A stretch of DNA of 32,602 nt, taken from positions 1 to 32,602 of the forward strand of contig MGKD01000020.1 in the NCBI GenBank assembly GCA_001794605.1, written 5' to 3'. The notes under the pieces were generated by a model that saw only the letters and a list, made by a program, of their open reading frames with translations, was not told the DNA's origin and did no database searches. Origin of the DNA: Candidatus Yanofskybacteria bacterium RIFCSPHIGHO2_12_FULL_45_19b (lineage in GTDB: Bacteria > Patescibacteriota > Minisyncoccia > 2-02-FULL-40-12 > IGHO2-12-FULL-4). A program made the translations under genes and the position numbers. Numbering within the stretch: the stretch's first letter is position 1; each line of letters opens with the position of its first letter. This document shows, in pieces, positions 2,355 to 16,203 of the stretch.

Positions 2355-2651
2355 ATGGAAGCAAACAAGCCAAAAACCAAAGCTAATACTGATAATCTTT
2401 TTGCTGGTTTGATTATTTTTGTTGGTTTGGTTTTGGGCTATCTATTGTATTCTAGTTATCCCGATGGTTTGTTTGGGGCAGTAGCCGTTCCACCCGCTCC
2501 TAAACTAGATGATCTGGGTCAAAAAGTAGAGAAGCTAGACTTAAGGTTTACAGTACTGGATAGAATCGCCTCTAGCCAACTGGAGATTTTCGGTGAAATT
2601 CCAGTAACGCCTGGTACTACTGGCAAAGAGGATCTGTTTAGTCCATTTTAG
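2355..2651 (+). CDS. Small membrane-anchored protein in the PilP position of the pilus operon
   Basis: 98 aa, one TM helix, C-terminus ...GKEDLFSPF; lies between pilO and pilB. Confidence 0.7.
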   Translation: MEANKPKTKANTDNLFAGLIIFVGLVLGYLLYSSYPDGLFGAVAVPPAPKLDDLGQKVEKLDLRFTVLDRIASSQLEIFGEIPVTPGTTGKEDLFSPF

Positions 2652-2659
2652 TTTCTCCT

Positions 2660-4432
2660 ATGGCAGTAAAAATTCCGATCACCCTAATCAACGAGTTGAT
2701 TCAGCGCAAGCTGTTAACCGCCGAACAGGCGGAGCTTTATCAAAAACAGGCCCGGGAAGAGGGCAAAGACTTTGGTCGAATTTTATTGGACCAGGGTATC
2801 GTTAAAGATGAGGAATTACTAAAGATAAAGTCGGAGCTTTACCATTTGCCAGCGGTTAATTCAGCCGAACTAGAAATTAACAAAGAGCTTTCTAAAACCA
2901 TCTCAGAGGATGTTATAAATTTCTATCAGATCATTCCGGTAGCACGCCAAGATACCACCCTTAGTGTGGGGGTGCTTAATCCCGAAGACCTGGACGCGCT
3001 AGAAGCACTGAAGTTTATCGGTCAAGATCAAGGTCTGACTTTGGGGAAATTGGTGATTAGTTATCGGGATTTTGACAAGGTCTTTAAGAGTTACTCCTCG
3101 ATTACCGAAGAAGTAGGGGAAATTCTTCAGCCATTAACCACGGAGGATAAAAAGCCGCAACTAGATTTGGCAGAAAGTGGTAGTCTGGAGCAAATTACCG
3201 CTGATTCGCCAATTACTAAAGTAGTGGCGATTATTGTTAAGCATGCGGTAGAAAGCAAGGCCTCTGATATTCACATTGAACCATTTGAAAATAATATTCG
3301 CGTGCGCTTTCGTATTGATGGAATTTTGCAGTCGGCCCTGGCTTTGCCTAAAAATCTGCTAGCGGCCATTGTTACCCGCATCAAGATTCTGTCAGAAATG
3401 AAGATTGATGAAACCCGCCTGCCGCAAGATGGGCGGTTTAGTACCTTTCTTGGACGTAAAATTGACTTTCGTGTTTCCTCACTGCCTACGCGTAATGGAG
3501 AAAAGATTGTGATGCGTATTCTCGACCCCTTGGTTGGCAATATTGATTTACCAGATTTAGGTCTGGCTGGACACTCTTTAGAATTAGTAGAAAAGAGCAT
3601 TGCCAAGCCTTTCGGCCAGATTTTGGTTACCGGTCCAACTGGTTCTGGCAAAAGTACCACACTATATTCTTTATTGCGTCGATTTAATAACGACGGTATC
3701 AATGTCATTACGTTAGAGGATCCCATTGAATATTTTATTGATGGCGTGAATCAGTCACAGACCCATGAGGAGATCGGCTACACTTTCGCTAGCGGTTTAC
3801 GTACCATTTTGCGCCAAGACCCGGATGTTATTATGGTGGGTGAGATTCGTGACCGTGAAACTGCTGGGCTGGCTACTAATGCCGCTTTGACTGGGCATAT
3901 TGTGTTAGCTTCACTACATACTAACGATGCGGTTGGTGTAATCCCGCGCTTGATTGATATGGGGGTGGAGAAGTATCTAATTGCGCCTACTTTAAATTTA
4001 GCCATTGCCCAAAGGTTGTTACGTAAACTCTGTAACAGCTGTAAGGTAAAGAGCGAACCAAATGCGGGAGAGAAGCACATCATTGCTGAGGCGATTAACA
4101 ACATCCCCGAAGTTTATAAGGCCGAGTTACCCGAGACGGTTGATTATATCTATAAACCATCTGAGCAGGGTTGTAAGGAGTGTGGTGGCAAGTCTTACAG
4201 AGGGCGTATCGCTATCTTTGAAGTCTTGGAAATGACGGATGAGTTGGAACAGCTGGTCTTAACCGATATCTCAGAGAGTAAAATTCGGGCTGAGGCCAAG
4301 CGGCAAAATATGATAATTATGTTCCAGGATGGTATAATAAAAGTACTGCAGGGGGTTACTTCGTTAGAAGAGTTGTTGCAGACCGCCCAACAAGAGGAAC
4401 CAGTGGCAGAAAAAGCCAAAACTAAAGTTTAA
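2660..4432 (+). CDS. pilB: Type IV pilus extension ATPase PilB/GspE
   Basis: N-terminal MshEN-like domain, Walker A GPTGSGKST, Asp box RQDPDVIMVGE, His box GHIVLASLHTND, tetracysteine CNSC...CKEC. Confidence 0.96.
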   Translation: MAVKIPITLINELIQRKLLTAEQAELYQKQAREEGKDFGRILLDQGIVKDEELLKIKSELYHLPAVNSAELEINKELSKTISEDVINFYQIIPVARQDTTLSVGVLNPEDLDALEALKFIGQDQGLTLGKLVISYRDFDKVFKSYSSITEEVGEILQPLTTEDKKPQLDLAESGSLEQITADSPITKVVAIIVKHAVESKASDIHIEPFENNIRVRFRIDGILQSALALPKNLLAAIVTRIKILSEMKIDETRLPQDGRFSTFLGRKIDFRVSSLPTRNGEKIVMRILDPLVGNIDLPDLGLAGHSLELVEKSIAKPFGQILVTGPTGSGKSTTLYSLLRRFNNDGINVITLEDPIEYFIDGVNQSQTHEEIGYTFASGLRTILRQDPDVIMVGEIRDRETAGLATNAALTGHIVLASLHTNDAVGVIPRLIDMGVEKYLIAPTLNLAIAQRLLRKLCNSCKVKSEPNAGEKHIIAEAINNIPEVYKAELPETVDYIYKPSEQGCKECGGKSYRGRIAIFEVLEMTDELEQLVLTDISESKIRAEAKRQNMIIMFQDGIIKVLQGVTSLEELLQTAQQEEPVAEKAKTKV

Positions 4433-4435
4433 TTT

Positions 4436-5509
4436 ATGGATCTATTGAATTATCGTCAGGCAGTCGAAGAGCTACTTACTACTACCGCTAAAGAGCACGG
4501 CTCGGACTTGCATCTCTCGCCGGGAGTTTACCCAACTATGCGCGTGGATGGTCGCCTAATTGCGCTTAATCAGCGGCCGATTCTGGATCCGCAGACGTTG
4601 GAGGGGTATGCGTTAGCCTTGTTGGGTGAAGAAAATAAGGAAAAATTTTTACAAGAAAAAGAGGCTGACCTAGCCTATACGGTTGGGGATAAAGCACGTT
4701 TTCGTATAAATATTTATTTAACACGTGGTCAGTATGCCATTGCTTGCCGCTTTATTCCTTACACTATCAAAACGATTGAGGAGTTAAAACTGCCCCCGAT
4801 TATTAAATTTTTTAGCAAGCTTTCCCAGGGTTTTGTTTTGGTGGTAGGGCCTAATGGTCACGGCAAATCTACTACCATGGCTTCTTTGATTGATTTAATT
4901 AACCATGAGCGCGTAGAAAAAATTGTTACCATTGAAGACCCGATTGAATATATGTTCATCTCTGACAAGAGTGTGATTGACCAACGTGAGGTCGGTAGTG
5001 ATACCAACTCCTTTAATGCCGCGCTGCGTTCTACTTTTCGTGAAAATGTTAATGTCATAATGGTGGGGGAGATGCGTGACTATGAGACTATTAGCACCGC
5101 GGTGTCGGCGGCCGAAACTGGCCACCTAGTATTTGCTTCCTTGCACACCAACAATGCTCCACAAACGATCGAGCGCATCATCGATAGTTTTCCACCCACT
5201 CAGCAACCGCAGATTATCTCTCAATTAGCTAATACTATCTCCGGAGTGATTTCCCAGCGTCTAATCCCTAGTGTCAATGGTGGACTGGTGCCCGCCGTGG
5301 AAATTATGATTGCTAATTCAGCGGTGCGTAATCTAATCCGTGAAAATAAAACTGAACAATTGGGCATCGTAATTGAAACTAGCGAAGACGCCGGTATGAT
5401 TTCATTAAACAAATCCTTGGCCGATCTAGTGCGCCAGGGGATTGTGGCGCGCGAGCAGGCCGAATTCTTCTCGCTCAATCCCAAAGAATTAAAAATCCTT
5501 CTTAGCTAA
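4436..5509 (+). CDS. pilT: PilT-like twitching motility ATPase (divergent Walker A and Asp box)
   Basis: GSDLHLSPGVYPTMRVDG, GPNGHGKSTT, ENVNVIMVGEMRDYETI, GHLVFASLHTNNA. Confidence 0.92.
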   Translation: MDLLNYRQAVEELLTTTAKEHGSDLHLSPGVYPTMRVDGRLIALNQRPILDPQTLEGYALALLGEENKEKFLQEKEADLAYTVGDKARFRINIYLTRGQYAIACRFIPYTIKTIEELKLPPIIKFFSKLSQGFVLVVGPNGHGKSTTMASLIDLINHERVEKIVTIEDPIEYMFISDKSVIDQREVGSDTNSFNAALRSTFRENVNVIMVGEMRDYETISTAVSAAETGHLVFASLHTNNAPQTIERIIDSFPPTQQPQIISQLANTISGVISQRLIPSVNGGLVPAVEIMIANSAVRNLIRENKTEQLGIVIETSEDAGMISLNKSLADLVRQGIVAREQAEFFSLNPKELKILLS

Positions 5510-6726
5510 TGGCTTTATTACAATTCCAATATGAGGCGAAGAACCGACGCGAAGAAATAGTAAGCGGTAGCGTCGAGGCAATCTCGGAAGAATCAGCGTT
5601 GGAGACGCTCCAGGAGCGTGGTTTAACTGTGCTTAGTTTGGTTGGTGAGGAACGCGGTTTGTTGAAAATGGATGTGGGGGGCTGGTTTAATCGACCCAAC
5701 AACAAAGATGTTGTAGTTTTTACGCGTCAGTTAGCTACCGTTATTGCGGCGGATGTGCCCTTGATTGAGGGTCTCAATACGATTGCTCGTCAATCCGAAA
5801 AACCGGTTTTTACCAAAATTGTCATGGATCTAGCCGAAGCGATTCGGGGCGGTAACTCACTTTCTGGTGCTGTAGCCAAATATCCCAAACTGTTTACCAA
5901 CTTCTATGTCAGCCTGGTACGTTCAGGAGAAGTTTCTGGTCGCATGGAAGAGACCTTGCTTTATCTAGCTGACTACCTGGAGCGTAACCAAAATATGAAT
6001 TCCAAAGTGAAGGGGGCTTTAGCCTATCCAGGTTTTATTTTGTTTGCTTTGGTAACGGTGATGATTATCATGGTTACCAGCGTATTGCCTAAAATGCTTG
6101 GCTTTATCACCGAAGCGGGGGTAGCAGACATCCCATTAATTACACGCATCCTAATTGCTTTAACTGACTTTGTTAACCGTTATCTTTGGGTAATATTGGC
6201 AGTAATGGTGTTTGGTATTTGGTTCGTGCGTCAGTATGCGCGTACTCTCGATGGGAAAAAGCGCTTGGACTATATCAAGATTTCCTTTCCACGCCTGGGG
6301 GTAGTGGCGCGTAATGTTTATATTGCTCGTATTGCTGAAACGCTGTCCACCTTAATTAAATCTGGCGTGCCAATTTTGGAAGGGTTAAAAATTACCTCAG
6401 AGATTGCCAATCACTCACTCTATCGCGAAATTCTGATTGAGGCGCAACAAAACGTGCAAAATGGCGGTACCATTTCCGAGGTGTTATTCAAATATCCCAA
6501 GGAAATCCCGCGTTTGGTGGCCTCAATGCTAACTATCGGCGAAAAGACCGGCAAAACTGACTTTATGCTAGAAAACATCTTTAAATTTTATAACGCCGAA
6601 GCCGAGCGGGATATCCAGAATTTATCGCAATTAATTGAGCCGATTCTGATCCTATTGTTAGGCTTAGGTGTGGCTCTACTCGTATCCGCTATAATGTTGC
6701 CAATGTTTAGTCTAGTGAACATTTAA
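5509..6726 (+). CDS. pilC: Type IV pilus inner-membrane platform protein PilC/GspF
   Basis: Two T2SSF repeats (FTRQLATVIAADVPLIEGL; IAETLSTLIKSGVPILEGL); C-terminus PMFSLVNI. Confidence 0.96.
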   Translation: MALLQFQYEAKNRREEIVSGSVEAISEESALETLQERGLTVLSLVGEERGLLKMDVGGWFNRPNNKDVVVFTRQLATVIAADVPLIEGLNTIARQSEKPVFTKIVMDLAEAIRGGNSLSGAVAKYPKLFTNFYVSLVRSGEVSGRMEETLLYLADYLERNQNMNSKVKGALAYPGFILFALVTVMIIMVTSVLPKMLGFITEAGVADIPLITRILIALTDFVNRYLWVILAVMVFGIWFVRQYARTLDGKKRLDYIKISFPRLGVVARNVYIARIAETLSTLIKSGVPILEGLKITSEIANHSLYREILIEAQQNVQNGGTISEVLFKYPKEIPRLVASMLTIGEKTGKTDFMLENIFKFYNAEAERDIQNLSQLIEPILILLLGLGVALLVSAIMLPMFSLVNI

Positions 6727-6841
6727 TTATGCTACTTGCCCGCCGAAGCCCCCTTGGGGCGTAGGAGGGCCTATGTTTAGTCTGGTTAATATCTAATCAT
6801 GTTGCTTGCCCGCCCGTAGCCCTTGGGGCTTAGGCGGGCCT
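6703..6841 (+). repeat. Tandem duplication (about 70 bp x 2) of the pilC 3' end plus its GC-rich hairpin
   Basis: Units 6703-6772 and 6773-6841; both begin with ATG TTT AGT CT. GT. AA. AT. TAA and continue with cttgcccgcc...ttgggg...gggcct. Confidence 0.9.
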
Positions 6842-6854
6842 GTGTATAACTAAT

Positions 6855-6883
6855 TTGCTAGTGACTGCTGACGGCGTTATAAT
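6855..6883 (+). promoter_or_regulatory. Sigma70-like promoter of the pilin gene
   Basis: TTGCTA (6855-6860), 17-nt spacer, TATAAT (6878-6883), ATG at 6912. Confidence 0.6.
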
Positions 6884-6911
6884 CAAGAAAAGTTTAAATA
6901 ATTAAGCAACT

Positions 6912-7448
6912 ATGAATATATTTGCAAGCAGAAACTCTCGGCCAGCCAATACCCTACGGCTCTCTCGTGGTTTCACTTTGGTTGAGTTGTTGGTCGTGAT
7001 CGCGATTATCGGTGTTTTATCCACACTGCTACTTTTGCAGTTAGGTACGGCGCGTGCCAAAGCGCGTGATACTAAGCGCATTACCGATGTTAGTGGCATT
7101 CGTACGGCAGTGGAGCTTTATTATGATGACTTTAATGGAGTCTATCCGACTGCCATCTCTACGGCTAATATTGGCAAATATTTGGCAGCACCAACTGTAC
7201 CAAATGATCCAGTAACCGCTGTAGCTTATTTTTACGCCTATAGCCCGGCCGCTAGTCCCACGAAATTTCACATCTGGACTGAGCTAGAGAATAAGAATAC
7301 TGCCGCTTTAGCGGGTGATGGTGATATGAATTCTACTGGTTGGTCCGGCAGTGCTTTTAATGCCAGTGTCGCTACTACCGAAGCTTGCACAGCGGCTTAC
7401 GCGGCTGGGGTGGCGCGTGATTGCGTTTACGATACTGGTCAAAAATAA
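6912..7448 (+). CDS. Type IV pilin (major pilin candidate)
   Basis: Prepilin motif SRG|FTLVELLVVIAIIGVLSTLLL, then ARDTKRITDVSGIRTAVELYYDDFNGVYP. Confidence 0.9.
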   Translation: MNIFASRNSRPANTLRLSRGFTLVELLVVIAIIGVLSTLLLLQLGTARAKARDTKRITDVSGIRTAVELYYDDFNGVYPTAISTANIGKYLAAPTVPNDPVTAVAYFYAYSPAASPTKFHIWTELENKNTAALAGDGDMNSTGWSGSAFNASVATTEACTAAYAAGVARDCVYDTGQK

Positions 7449-7469
7449 TTCCCTTTGATTTTTCTCTTG

Positions 7470-7519
7470 CCACCGTTAGCGTGCTAGAATGTAAGCATGT
7501 TAACGGTGGTTTTGTTTTT
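7470..7519 (+). terminator. Hairpin plus U-rich tract overlapping the pilD start codon (terminator/attenuator candidate)
   Basis: 15-bp stem CCACCGTTAGCGTGC (7470-7484)/GCATGTTAACGGTGG (7495-7509), two G-U pairs, then TTTTGTTTTT. Confidence 0.6.
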
Positions 7520-8327
7520 GGTTGGTCTAATAGTTGGTAGTTTTCTCAATGTTGTAATTTGGCGCTTGCCACGTGGAGAGGGAGTGACCGGTTTGGTTCG
7601 GGGTGAAAAAAAGGGCCAGGTTTCAACAGAGAGGCAATTTCGGTACTGGGACAATAGCCGTTCCAAATGTCCCAACTGCCAACGCCAAATCAATTGGTAT
7701 GACTTAATGCCGGTTATCAGTTTTTTTATTCTGCGTCGGCGGTGTCGTTTTTGTAAAAAGCCAATCAGTTGGCGCTACCCCTTAATAGAATTATCCATTG
7801 GGCTGCTCGCCTTACTGCTTTATTGGCTATTTCTGCCCGTCAGTTTAATCCAGTGGCTAAATTTTGCTTACTGGCTGGTGACATTGTCTGGTGTTTTCGC
7901 TATTGGTGTTATTGATTTTACCCATTTAGTTATTCCTGATAAAATATTGATAGTTTTGGGGGTGGTAGGTTTGGCGCATGCCATAAAATTTGATTTTTCC
8001 AGCCACCTGATTACTGCCCTAATTGGCGGCGTACTATTTGCGCTAGTCTATTGGATTACGCATGGTCGAGGGATTGGCTGGGGCGATGTGAAGTTTATCT
8101 TTGTCCTTGGACTATTATTTGGTTTTCCGGATATTTTGTTTGTTATCTATGGAGCGTTGTTTTTGGGGGTGATCTGGGGAGGGGCCTTGCTTTTAACTAG
8201 ACGAGCTAATATGAAAACCAAGTTACCTTTTGGTACAATGTTAGCCACCACTGCCATTCTTACCATCTTTTTACACAGTTGGCTGATTAGTTCCACTAGT
8301 GAGTATCTCTTTTATCTTTATCACTAA
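7497..8327 (+). CDS. pilD: Prepilin peptidase/N-methyltransferase (PilD)
   Basis: GLIVGSFLNVVIWRLP, CPNCQRQINWYDLMPVISFFILRRRCRFCKKPISWRYPLIE, GxGxGDVKF motif (GIGWGDVKF). Confidence 0.95.
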   Translation: MLTVVLFLVGLIVGSFLNVVIWRLPRGEGVTGLVRGEKKGQVSTERQFRYWDNSRSKCPNCQRQINWYDLMPVISFFILRRRCRFCKKPISWRYPLIELSIGLLALLLYWLFLPVSLIQWLNFAYWLVTLSGVFAIGVIDFTHLVIPDKILIVLGVVGLAHAIKFDFSSHLITALIGGVLFALVYWITHGRGIGWGDVKFIFVLGLLFGFPDILFVIYGALFLGVIWGGALLLTRRANMKTKLPFGTMLATTAILTIFLHSWLISSTSEYLFYLYH

Positions 8328-8896
8328 TGAGTAAGGCACAAAAAATTGGTAAGTTAATTGGTCAACACGGTTTTAGCTTGATAGAGGTAATCTTTATTAC
8401 TTTTTTTGTTGGTGTACTTTCTAGCCTGCTATTGGTAAATTTAAATGGGTCGCGTAATAACATCGTAATCGTGGAGCGTTCAGCCGCCGCTTTGGTGGGA
8501 GATATTAGACAGGCACAAAATTTGGCGATAGCCGGAAAAACCAGTGGCGGCGGAGCAGTGTGTGGTTTTGGTTTACACTATGTTAATACTACTAGCTACG
8601 CGCTTTATGCTGGCTCTACTTCAGTCGGTACCACTTGTGCTGGTGTCAATCGTAATTTTGATGTTAGTATTGATTCCATTCTTTCCACTAAGAACCTAAT
8701 CGAAACTAATGTGGAAATAAAAAGCTGGATCAGCGGGGACCTGTTCTTTGAGTCGCCCGATCCAAAAACTTTTATTAATAATTCCAATGCTGTTGGTCAA
8801 ACTATGCTTATTACTTTAGGTTTTAAAAATACCGCCTGTCCGACTAATTGCAAAACCATTACTATTTCTACCGGTGGCCGAATTGATCTTCCCTAA
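8327..8896 (+). CDS. Minor pilin/pseudopilin (GspH-like)
   Basis: Prepilin motif QHGFSLIEVIFITFFVGVLSSLLL. Confidence 0.8.
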   Translation: MSKAQKIGKLIGQHGFSLIEVIFITFFVGVLSSLLLVNLNGSRNNIVIVERSAAALVGDIRQAQNLAIAGKTSGGGAVCGFGLHYVNTTSYALYAGSTSVGTTCAGVNRNFDVSIDSILSTKNLIETNVEIKSWISGDLFFESPDPKTFINNSNAVGQTMLITLGFKNTACPTNCKTITISTGGRIDLP

Positions 8897-10362: not shown

Positions 10363-12480
<2,118 letters not shown>

Positions 12481-15525: not shown

Positions 15526-15554
15526 CTACCCCCGAGGTTCGACCTTGGGGGTAG
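15526..15554. repeat. REP-like palindrome at the 3' end of the RAYT gene
   Basis: CTACCCCCGAGGT-TCG-ACCTTGGGGGTAG, 13-bp arms with one mismatch. Confidence 0.8.
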
Positions 15555-16203
15555 ACGTTAGCCAGTCTCGAGTTGTAGTCTTAAAATTATTTACGGAACT
15601 AAAGTATCGGGGTAGTACGTCTTTGTTGATTACTTTTCTTTCTGGGCGTGTCTTACCACAATAATCTAAATAACTTGAATAAAGATATTGATCTAAAAAA
15701 TTCTCTGCTCGTTTTTTATCTTTAATTCCTTCTTCTTTCCACTGTGAGTCAATTATTTTTATTGGGTTTAGATGAATGTAAGATATTAAATATTTTAAAT
15801 ACTCATCTTGGTTAGCATGGGTGGCTTTAAATTCCCCCTGAAAAAGTGCACCTGTTCTCTCATATCGTTTATTGAAATACATAGTATAACCAGTGATAAT
15901 TTTTTGCATAAATCGACTGATACCGTTATCTCCTCTCTCCTGTACTATCAGGTGAAAGTGGTTGGGCATTAAACAGTAGGCACCAATGTTTAATAGCGGG
16001 CTGACTCGCTCTAGTAAGAGTCTTTCGGCTAAATTTGAGCTTGGGCGGTCATTTAAATGAACGTTTTGTGTGTCATTGCATAGATACAACAGAGCAATAA
16101 ATCTTTCATAGTCAGCTTTAGCAGAGAATATTATCCGTTTTTCCGTGCCACGATTATATAGATGATAAAATTCATCTTGGCTAAATACTATACTTCTAGA
16201 CAT
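15526..16203 (-). CDS. REP-associated tyrosine transposase-like protein (Y1/HUH transposase IS200-like)
   Basis: YHLYNRGTEKRIIF, HUH motif YCLMPNHFHLIV, MQKIITGYTMYFNKRY, RTGALFQGEFKATHANQDEYLKYLISYIHLNPIK. Confidence 0.93.
   Translation of the reverse strand: MSRSIVFSQDEFYHLYNRGTEKRIIFSAKADYERFIALLYLCNDTQNVHLNDRPSSNLAERLLLERVSPLLNIGAYCLMPNHFHLIVQERGDNGISRFMQKIITGYTMYFNKRYERTGALFQGEFKATHANQDEYLKYLISYIHLNPIKIIDSQWKEEGIKDKKRAENFLDQYLYSSYLDYCGKTRPERKVINKDVLPRYFSSVNNFKTTTRDWLTSTPKVEPRG

Follow-up and report, generated by a model that had tools for sequence, protein, structure and literature searches.

A diverged tandem duplication of the pilC 3' end and its REP-like hairpin in a Candidatus Yanofskybacteria genome

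Introduction

The att sites of integrative elements are integration sites in the 3' ends of genes. The locus described here resembles them in having a gene 3' end repeated nearby with synonymous changes, but differs in that only a hairpin lies between the copies and there is no integrase or element. It belongs to Candidatus Yanofskybacteria bacterium RIFCSPHIGHO2_12_FULL_45_19b, of which positions 1 to 32,602 of contig MGKD01000020.1 were analysed (this whole stretch of 32,602 nucleotides is referred to as the window).

REPs mostly sit behind coding regions, and their clusters show tandem reiteration with segments of flanking DNA (PMC3733652). Like REP clusters of the GTAG and CGTC superfamilies (PMC3733652), the element found here is a short bulged G+C-rich palindrome 3' of a coding region, dispersed at a few genome sites and iterated head to tail along with the DNA next to it. 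Unlike them, it has a very low copy number (six) and no clear GTAG or CGTC tag, no copy lies beside a resident Y1 transposase, and a gene end forms part of the repeated flank.

Homology-facilitated illegitimate recombination, in which a homologous insertion is one-sided, is described in PMC3240628 for naturally competent bacteria and E. coli. It would give a diverged duplicate joined at a few common bases. No donor or mosaic is seen here, and synonymous-only divergence is the one feature from which such an event would be inferred.

Results

Layout of the repeat

pilC (5509-6726, plus strand) codes for a 405 aa type IV pilus/T2SS-F inner-membrane protein of the T2SSF/PilC-GspF type (PF00482, E 2.5e-56) and has a single match in its own genome. 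Reading and alignment of the sequence place a block of about 70 bases, doubled head to tail, at its 3' end (6703-6772 and 6773-6841). In the block, the seven last pilC codons and the stop (MFSLVNI*) are followed by a short linker, after which comes a bulged G+C-rich hairpin. The coding part of copy 1 (6703-6726, plus strand; ATG TTT AGT CTA GTG AAC ATT TAA) is in frame with pilC and forms its functional end, while the coding remnant of copy 2 (6773-6796, plus strand; ATG TTT AGT CTG GTT AAT ATC TAA) lies outside pilC. The preliminary description had read both 24-nt segments exactly as they stand, and its further statements, that both encode MFSLVNI* with four third-position differences and that a related, non-identical hairpin follows each copy, agree with the alignment and with the folding of both hairpins.

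Gapped alignment of the two copies gives 10 substitutions and 2 indels in total. Four substitutions fall within the 24 nt of the coding part and all four are synonymous (CTA/CTG, GTG/GTT, AAC/AAT, ATT/ATC); the noncoding part carries six, together with one 1-nt and one 2-nt indel. Direct repeats 6699-6744/6769-6814 and 6751-6779/6820-6848 are 83% and 86% identical, and the best offset self-match of the window scores 26, far above chance (at most 15.0 in 60 same-length Markov nulls). The common block possibly begins at the GCC at 6699; this short GCC (3 nt) is common to both block ends and stands at the junction. There are no N bases at the join or anywhere in the window.

A near-tandem self-comparison covering about 582 of the genome's 604 kb, with N-runs left out, returned further hits that were classed by eye from their sequences: mostly repeats of protein-coding type, along with two tRNAs in tandem and a few repeats of other kinds. 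None of them resembled a second diverged gene end with a hairpin. Elsewhere in the genome (L085, G000:C21, 5191-5254) a 64-nt exact repeat with a spacing of 125 includes the hairpin GGTCCGCTTCGGCGGACC and has further repeats nearby.

The hairpins and their relatives

Hairpin 1 (6738-6770, plus strand; GCCCGCCGAAGCCCCCTTGGGGCGTAGGAGGGC) was found by folding and by the palindrome type scan, and has one G/A mismatch in its outer stem. Hairpin 2 (6808-6839, plus strand; GCCCGCCCGTAGCCCTTGGGGCTTAGGCGGGC), identified by folding, has an outer stem of seven pairs. The predicted folds have energies of -22.1 kcal/mol (z -1.9) and -25.1 kcal/mol (z -2.5), respectively. Their core, GCC-GAA-GCCCC...GGGGC-GTA-GG, is a bulged palindrome. 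Since a simple CCGCC...GGCGG scan showed no excess over the control (37 vs 36 per strand), a bulge-aware pattern was adopted, which gave six matches in the genome, two of them hairpins 1 and 2, vs none for the control pattern. The palindrome type GCCGAAGC...GCGTAGGC thus occurs at four further places in this genome, three between ORFs and one inside an ORF. It is also present in other genomes of the class, where close matches extend into the flanks (e.g., CTTGCCCGCCGAAGCCC...GCGAAGGCGGGCCTA in L109). No Rfam family matched positions 6400-7000 up to an E value of 1.

We considered whether the hairpins could be plain intrinsic terminators, which is unlikely as no terminator-like T-run follows either of them on the 3' side. 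Mobility driven by a RAYT was rejected as well, since the flanks of the four resident Y1 genes bear hairpins of other sequence. For the same reason, and with the GTAG tetranucleotide absent from the hairpin ends (the minus-strand ends read ATAG and ACAG), hairpins 1 and 2 were not filed as GTAG REPs. These Y1 (REP-associated-like) tyrosine transposase genes are located at 15526-16203 of the window (minus strand) and at three other loci (L121, L122, L123), each flanked by hairpins of its own sequence, e.g., CTACCTTGAGGTT-AAACCTCAAGGTAG and CTACCCCCGAGGTTCGACCTTGGGGGTAG. A further palindrome, CCCGCCTAAGTTTTTCGGAGAAAAAATTGGGCGGG, is found within the ligA reading frame (10731-10769 of the window), where it resembles a palindrome inserted in frame into the adenylation domain.

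The spacer and the pilin gene

The duplication is followed on the 3' side by a prepilin-like (GspG-type) pilin gene (6912-7448, plus strand; PF07963, TIGR02532). Its promoter-like site follows the second copy: the region 6841-6883 (plus strand) contains the TGTGTATAA element and then TTGCTA-17-TATAAT (6855-6883). Upstream of the pilin gene, a TGTKNATAW element (DnaA-box-like TTATNNACA on the opposite strand) precedes a TATAAT-like box by 33-39 nt in about 16 of 29 relatives (pilC-pilin spacers L026-L055). Within the genome itself, TATAAT-like partners of TGTKNATAW number six at a distance of exactly 37 nt, vs about one at other distances. In several relatives the pilC-pilin spacer contains other, unrelated hairpins, one of which (in G003) likewise has further copies; the spacer therefore seems to collect palindromes.

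Relatives and the search for a donor

A PilC relative is present in all 58 genomes of the first comparison. In the family's five other genomes, PilC shares just 58-65% identity with the protein studied here and ends in VGAA, VGAG or VGAS, with VNI* in none of the five. None of these five has a repeated pilC end either (self-match score of at most 10, vs 15.5 here). As VNI* is common to both copies, the block must have been doubled or brought in after the split from the other genera of the family, or have come from a very close source.

No donor candidate was found in 384 genomes of the class, which include no congener; what the DNA search returned was limited to weak hits in conserved parts of pilC and in the hairpin. 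A search of viral contigs for the degenerate coding pattern was negative. A single near-identical public record turned up: LCEX01000051.1, a contig of 9 kb from the Gottesmanbacteria bin GW2011_GWC1_43_10. It matches window positions 2509-5733 at 99.8% over 3225 nt with no diverged tract, the seven differences being five synonymous and two nonsynonymous. The match ends inside pilC at 5733, 970 bases before the repeat, and positions 5734-8400 have no match in the rest of that assembly. The same identity means that this Gottesmanbacteria bin (the contig being L056 in our set) is contaminated or that the labels disagree.

Discussion

We lean towards an old event in which a REP-like hairpin and its flank were locally duplicated in tandem between pilC and the separate promoter of the pilin gene. 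About 70 bp, comprising the seven last pilC codons, the stop and the hairpin, would have been doubled after the lineage split from the other known genera of the family. The probable mechanism is slippage or unequal joining through a short match between GCCAATGTTTA at the block start and GCCTGTGTATA at the block end. Copy 1 would have remained the real pilC end, while copy 2 became an untranslated remnant. Both hairpins would most likely belong to the 3' untranslated region of the pil operon transcript and may stabilise or delimit its end, before the point where the pilin promoter takes over. We favour local duplication because the lineage-specific VNI* is present in both copies, no second pilC exists and relatives have a single end. 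The recurring hairpin type, the REP precedent for tandem reiteration (PMC3733652) and the short GCC at both block ends argue the same way, as do the pilin promoter-like site 3' of copy 2 and the lack of a terminator-like T-run.

Certain points count against local duplication. A tandem repeat of 70 bp would often be lost before it reaches about 15% divergence, and no intermediate or near-identical stage of the duplication was seen in our comparisons. The pattern of substitutions also counts against it. The preliminary description took synonymous-only divergence to suggest that both copies had diverged while functional, and the codon model gives this some support: with copy 2 neutral, four differences that are all synonymous have p ~0.014, and the likelihood ratio in favour of two constrained copies is 5 to 56, the range reflecting the assumed hairpin constraint. 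These values come from eight codons in a feature picked for the synonymous-only pattern itself, and constraint on copy 1 is expected whichever hypothesis holds; the signal for two constrained copies is real and modest, which makes it weak ground for calling both ends functional. Our confidence in the rival readings is a judgement that sets the likelihood ratios against simple local duplication, to which we gave a much higher prior.

Such a signal could be expected if a diverged congener had been the source of imported DNA and the junction were the scar of that import, an alternative that we hold to be, on balance, unlikely. Homologous crossover within or upstream of pilC, combined with an illegitimate join at GCC/GCCT linking the end of the donor hairpin to the pilC end of the recipient, would have placed the donor end and hairpin ahead of the recipient's own end and hairpin, as in homology-facilitated illegitimate recombination. 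The synonymous nature of all four coding differences, the likelihood ratio given above and the 3-nt GCC common to the junction agree with this, and one-sided insertion of the kind described for naturally competent bacteria and E. coli offers a precedent. However, import would need a same-genus donor, and the 384 class genomes, with no congener among them, contain none. No mosaic breakpoint is visible in pilC by GC3 or by identity to relatives, a comparison that has little power for a congeneric donor and would miss one of the same genus. The near-identical Rifle contig also runs to window position 5733 without a diverged tract. The fuller claim, that an uncultured small-genome bacterium took up the DNA by natural transformation and that the junction preserves this one-sided homologous import inside its own pilus operon, appears doubtful to us.

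An assembly artefact, with the draft fusing end to end the alleles of two strains or species that lived side by side, would explain synonymous-only divergence directly, and as well as import does. The genome is a draft of 32 contigs with N-runs at several places, the near-identical contig of another assembly ends inside pilC, and local assembly errors are described as common in metagenome assemblies (PMC7111523). The join and the whole window are nevertheless free of N, and the only second strain seen differs by 0.2%, vs about 15% between the copies. The roughly 582 kb of the 604 kb genome that were screened contain no other imperfect gene-end duplication of this kind. In PMC7111523, errors of the duplicate kind involve identical sequence, and none of the error types considered from it yields a copy about 15% divergent. 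We consider such an artefact improbable.

That copy 2 is a translated seven-codon leader peptide under selection, with its ribosome site in hairpin 1, is very improbable: it has an ATG...TAA frame with AGGAGG directly upstream (6764-6769, plus strand, by reading) and only synonymous differences from copy 1, but this AGGAGG sits within a stem (the 3' arm of hairpin 1), the second copy occurs in none of the relatives examined, and there is no Shine-Dalgarno enrichment ahead of starts. A Shine-Dalgarno-like tetramer precedes none of the 28 window genes, and over 438 ORFs the frequency is 8.7%, vs 10.5% in control stretches. As the genome makes no such use of Shine-Dalgarno sequences, the AGGAGG before copy 2 is probably fortuitous and translation of copy 2 unlikely.

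The 16S rRNA gene retains the anti-Shine-Dalgarno GGATCACCTCCTTTCT at its 3' end despite this lack of use. The gene itself (G000:C23, 29600-33551; L101-L103) appears interrupted, as model positions 9-546 were matched apart from the rest; there is a further insertion after GGATCTTGTACTC, and the likely true 3' end lies about 1.5 kb lower.

Were the junction the scar of an import, it would document directly, at sequence level, that close relatives take up DNA and recombine in a lineage represented by draft genomes alone. Read as a plain duplication, which we prefer, the locus only illustrates how a short palindrome 3' of a gene can multiply and carry the gene end with it, and it cautions annotators against taking 6773-6796 for a gene end.
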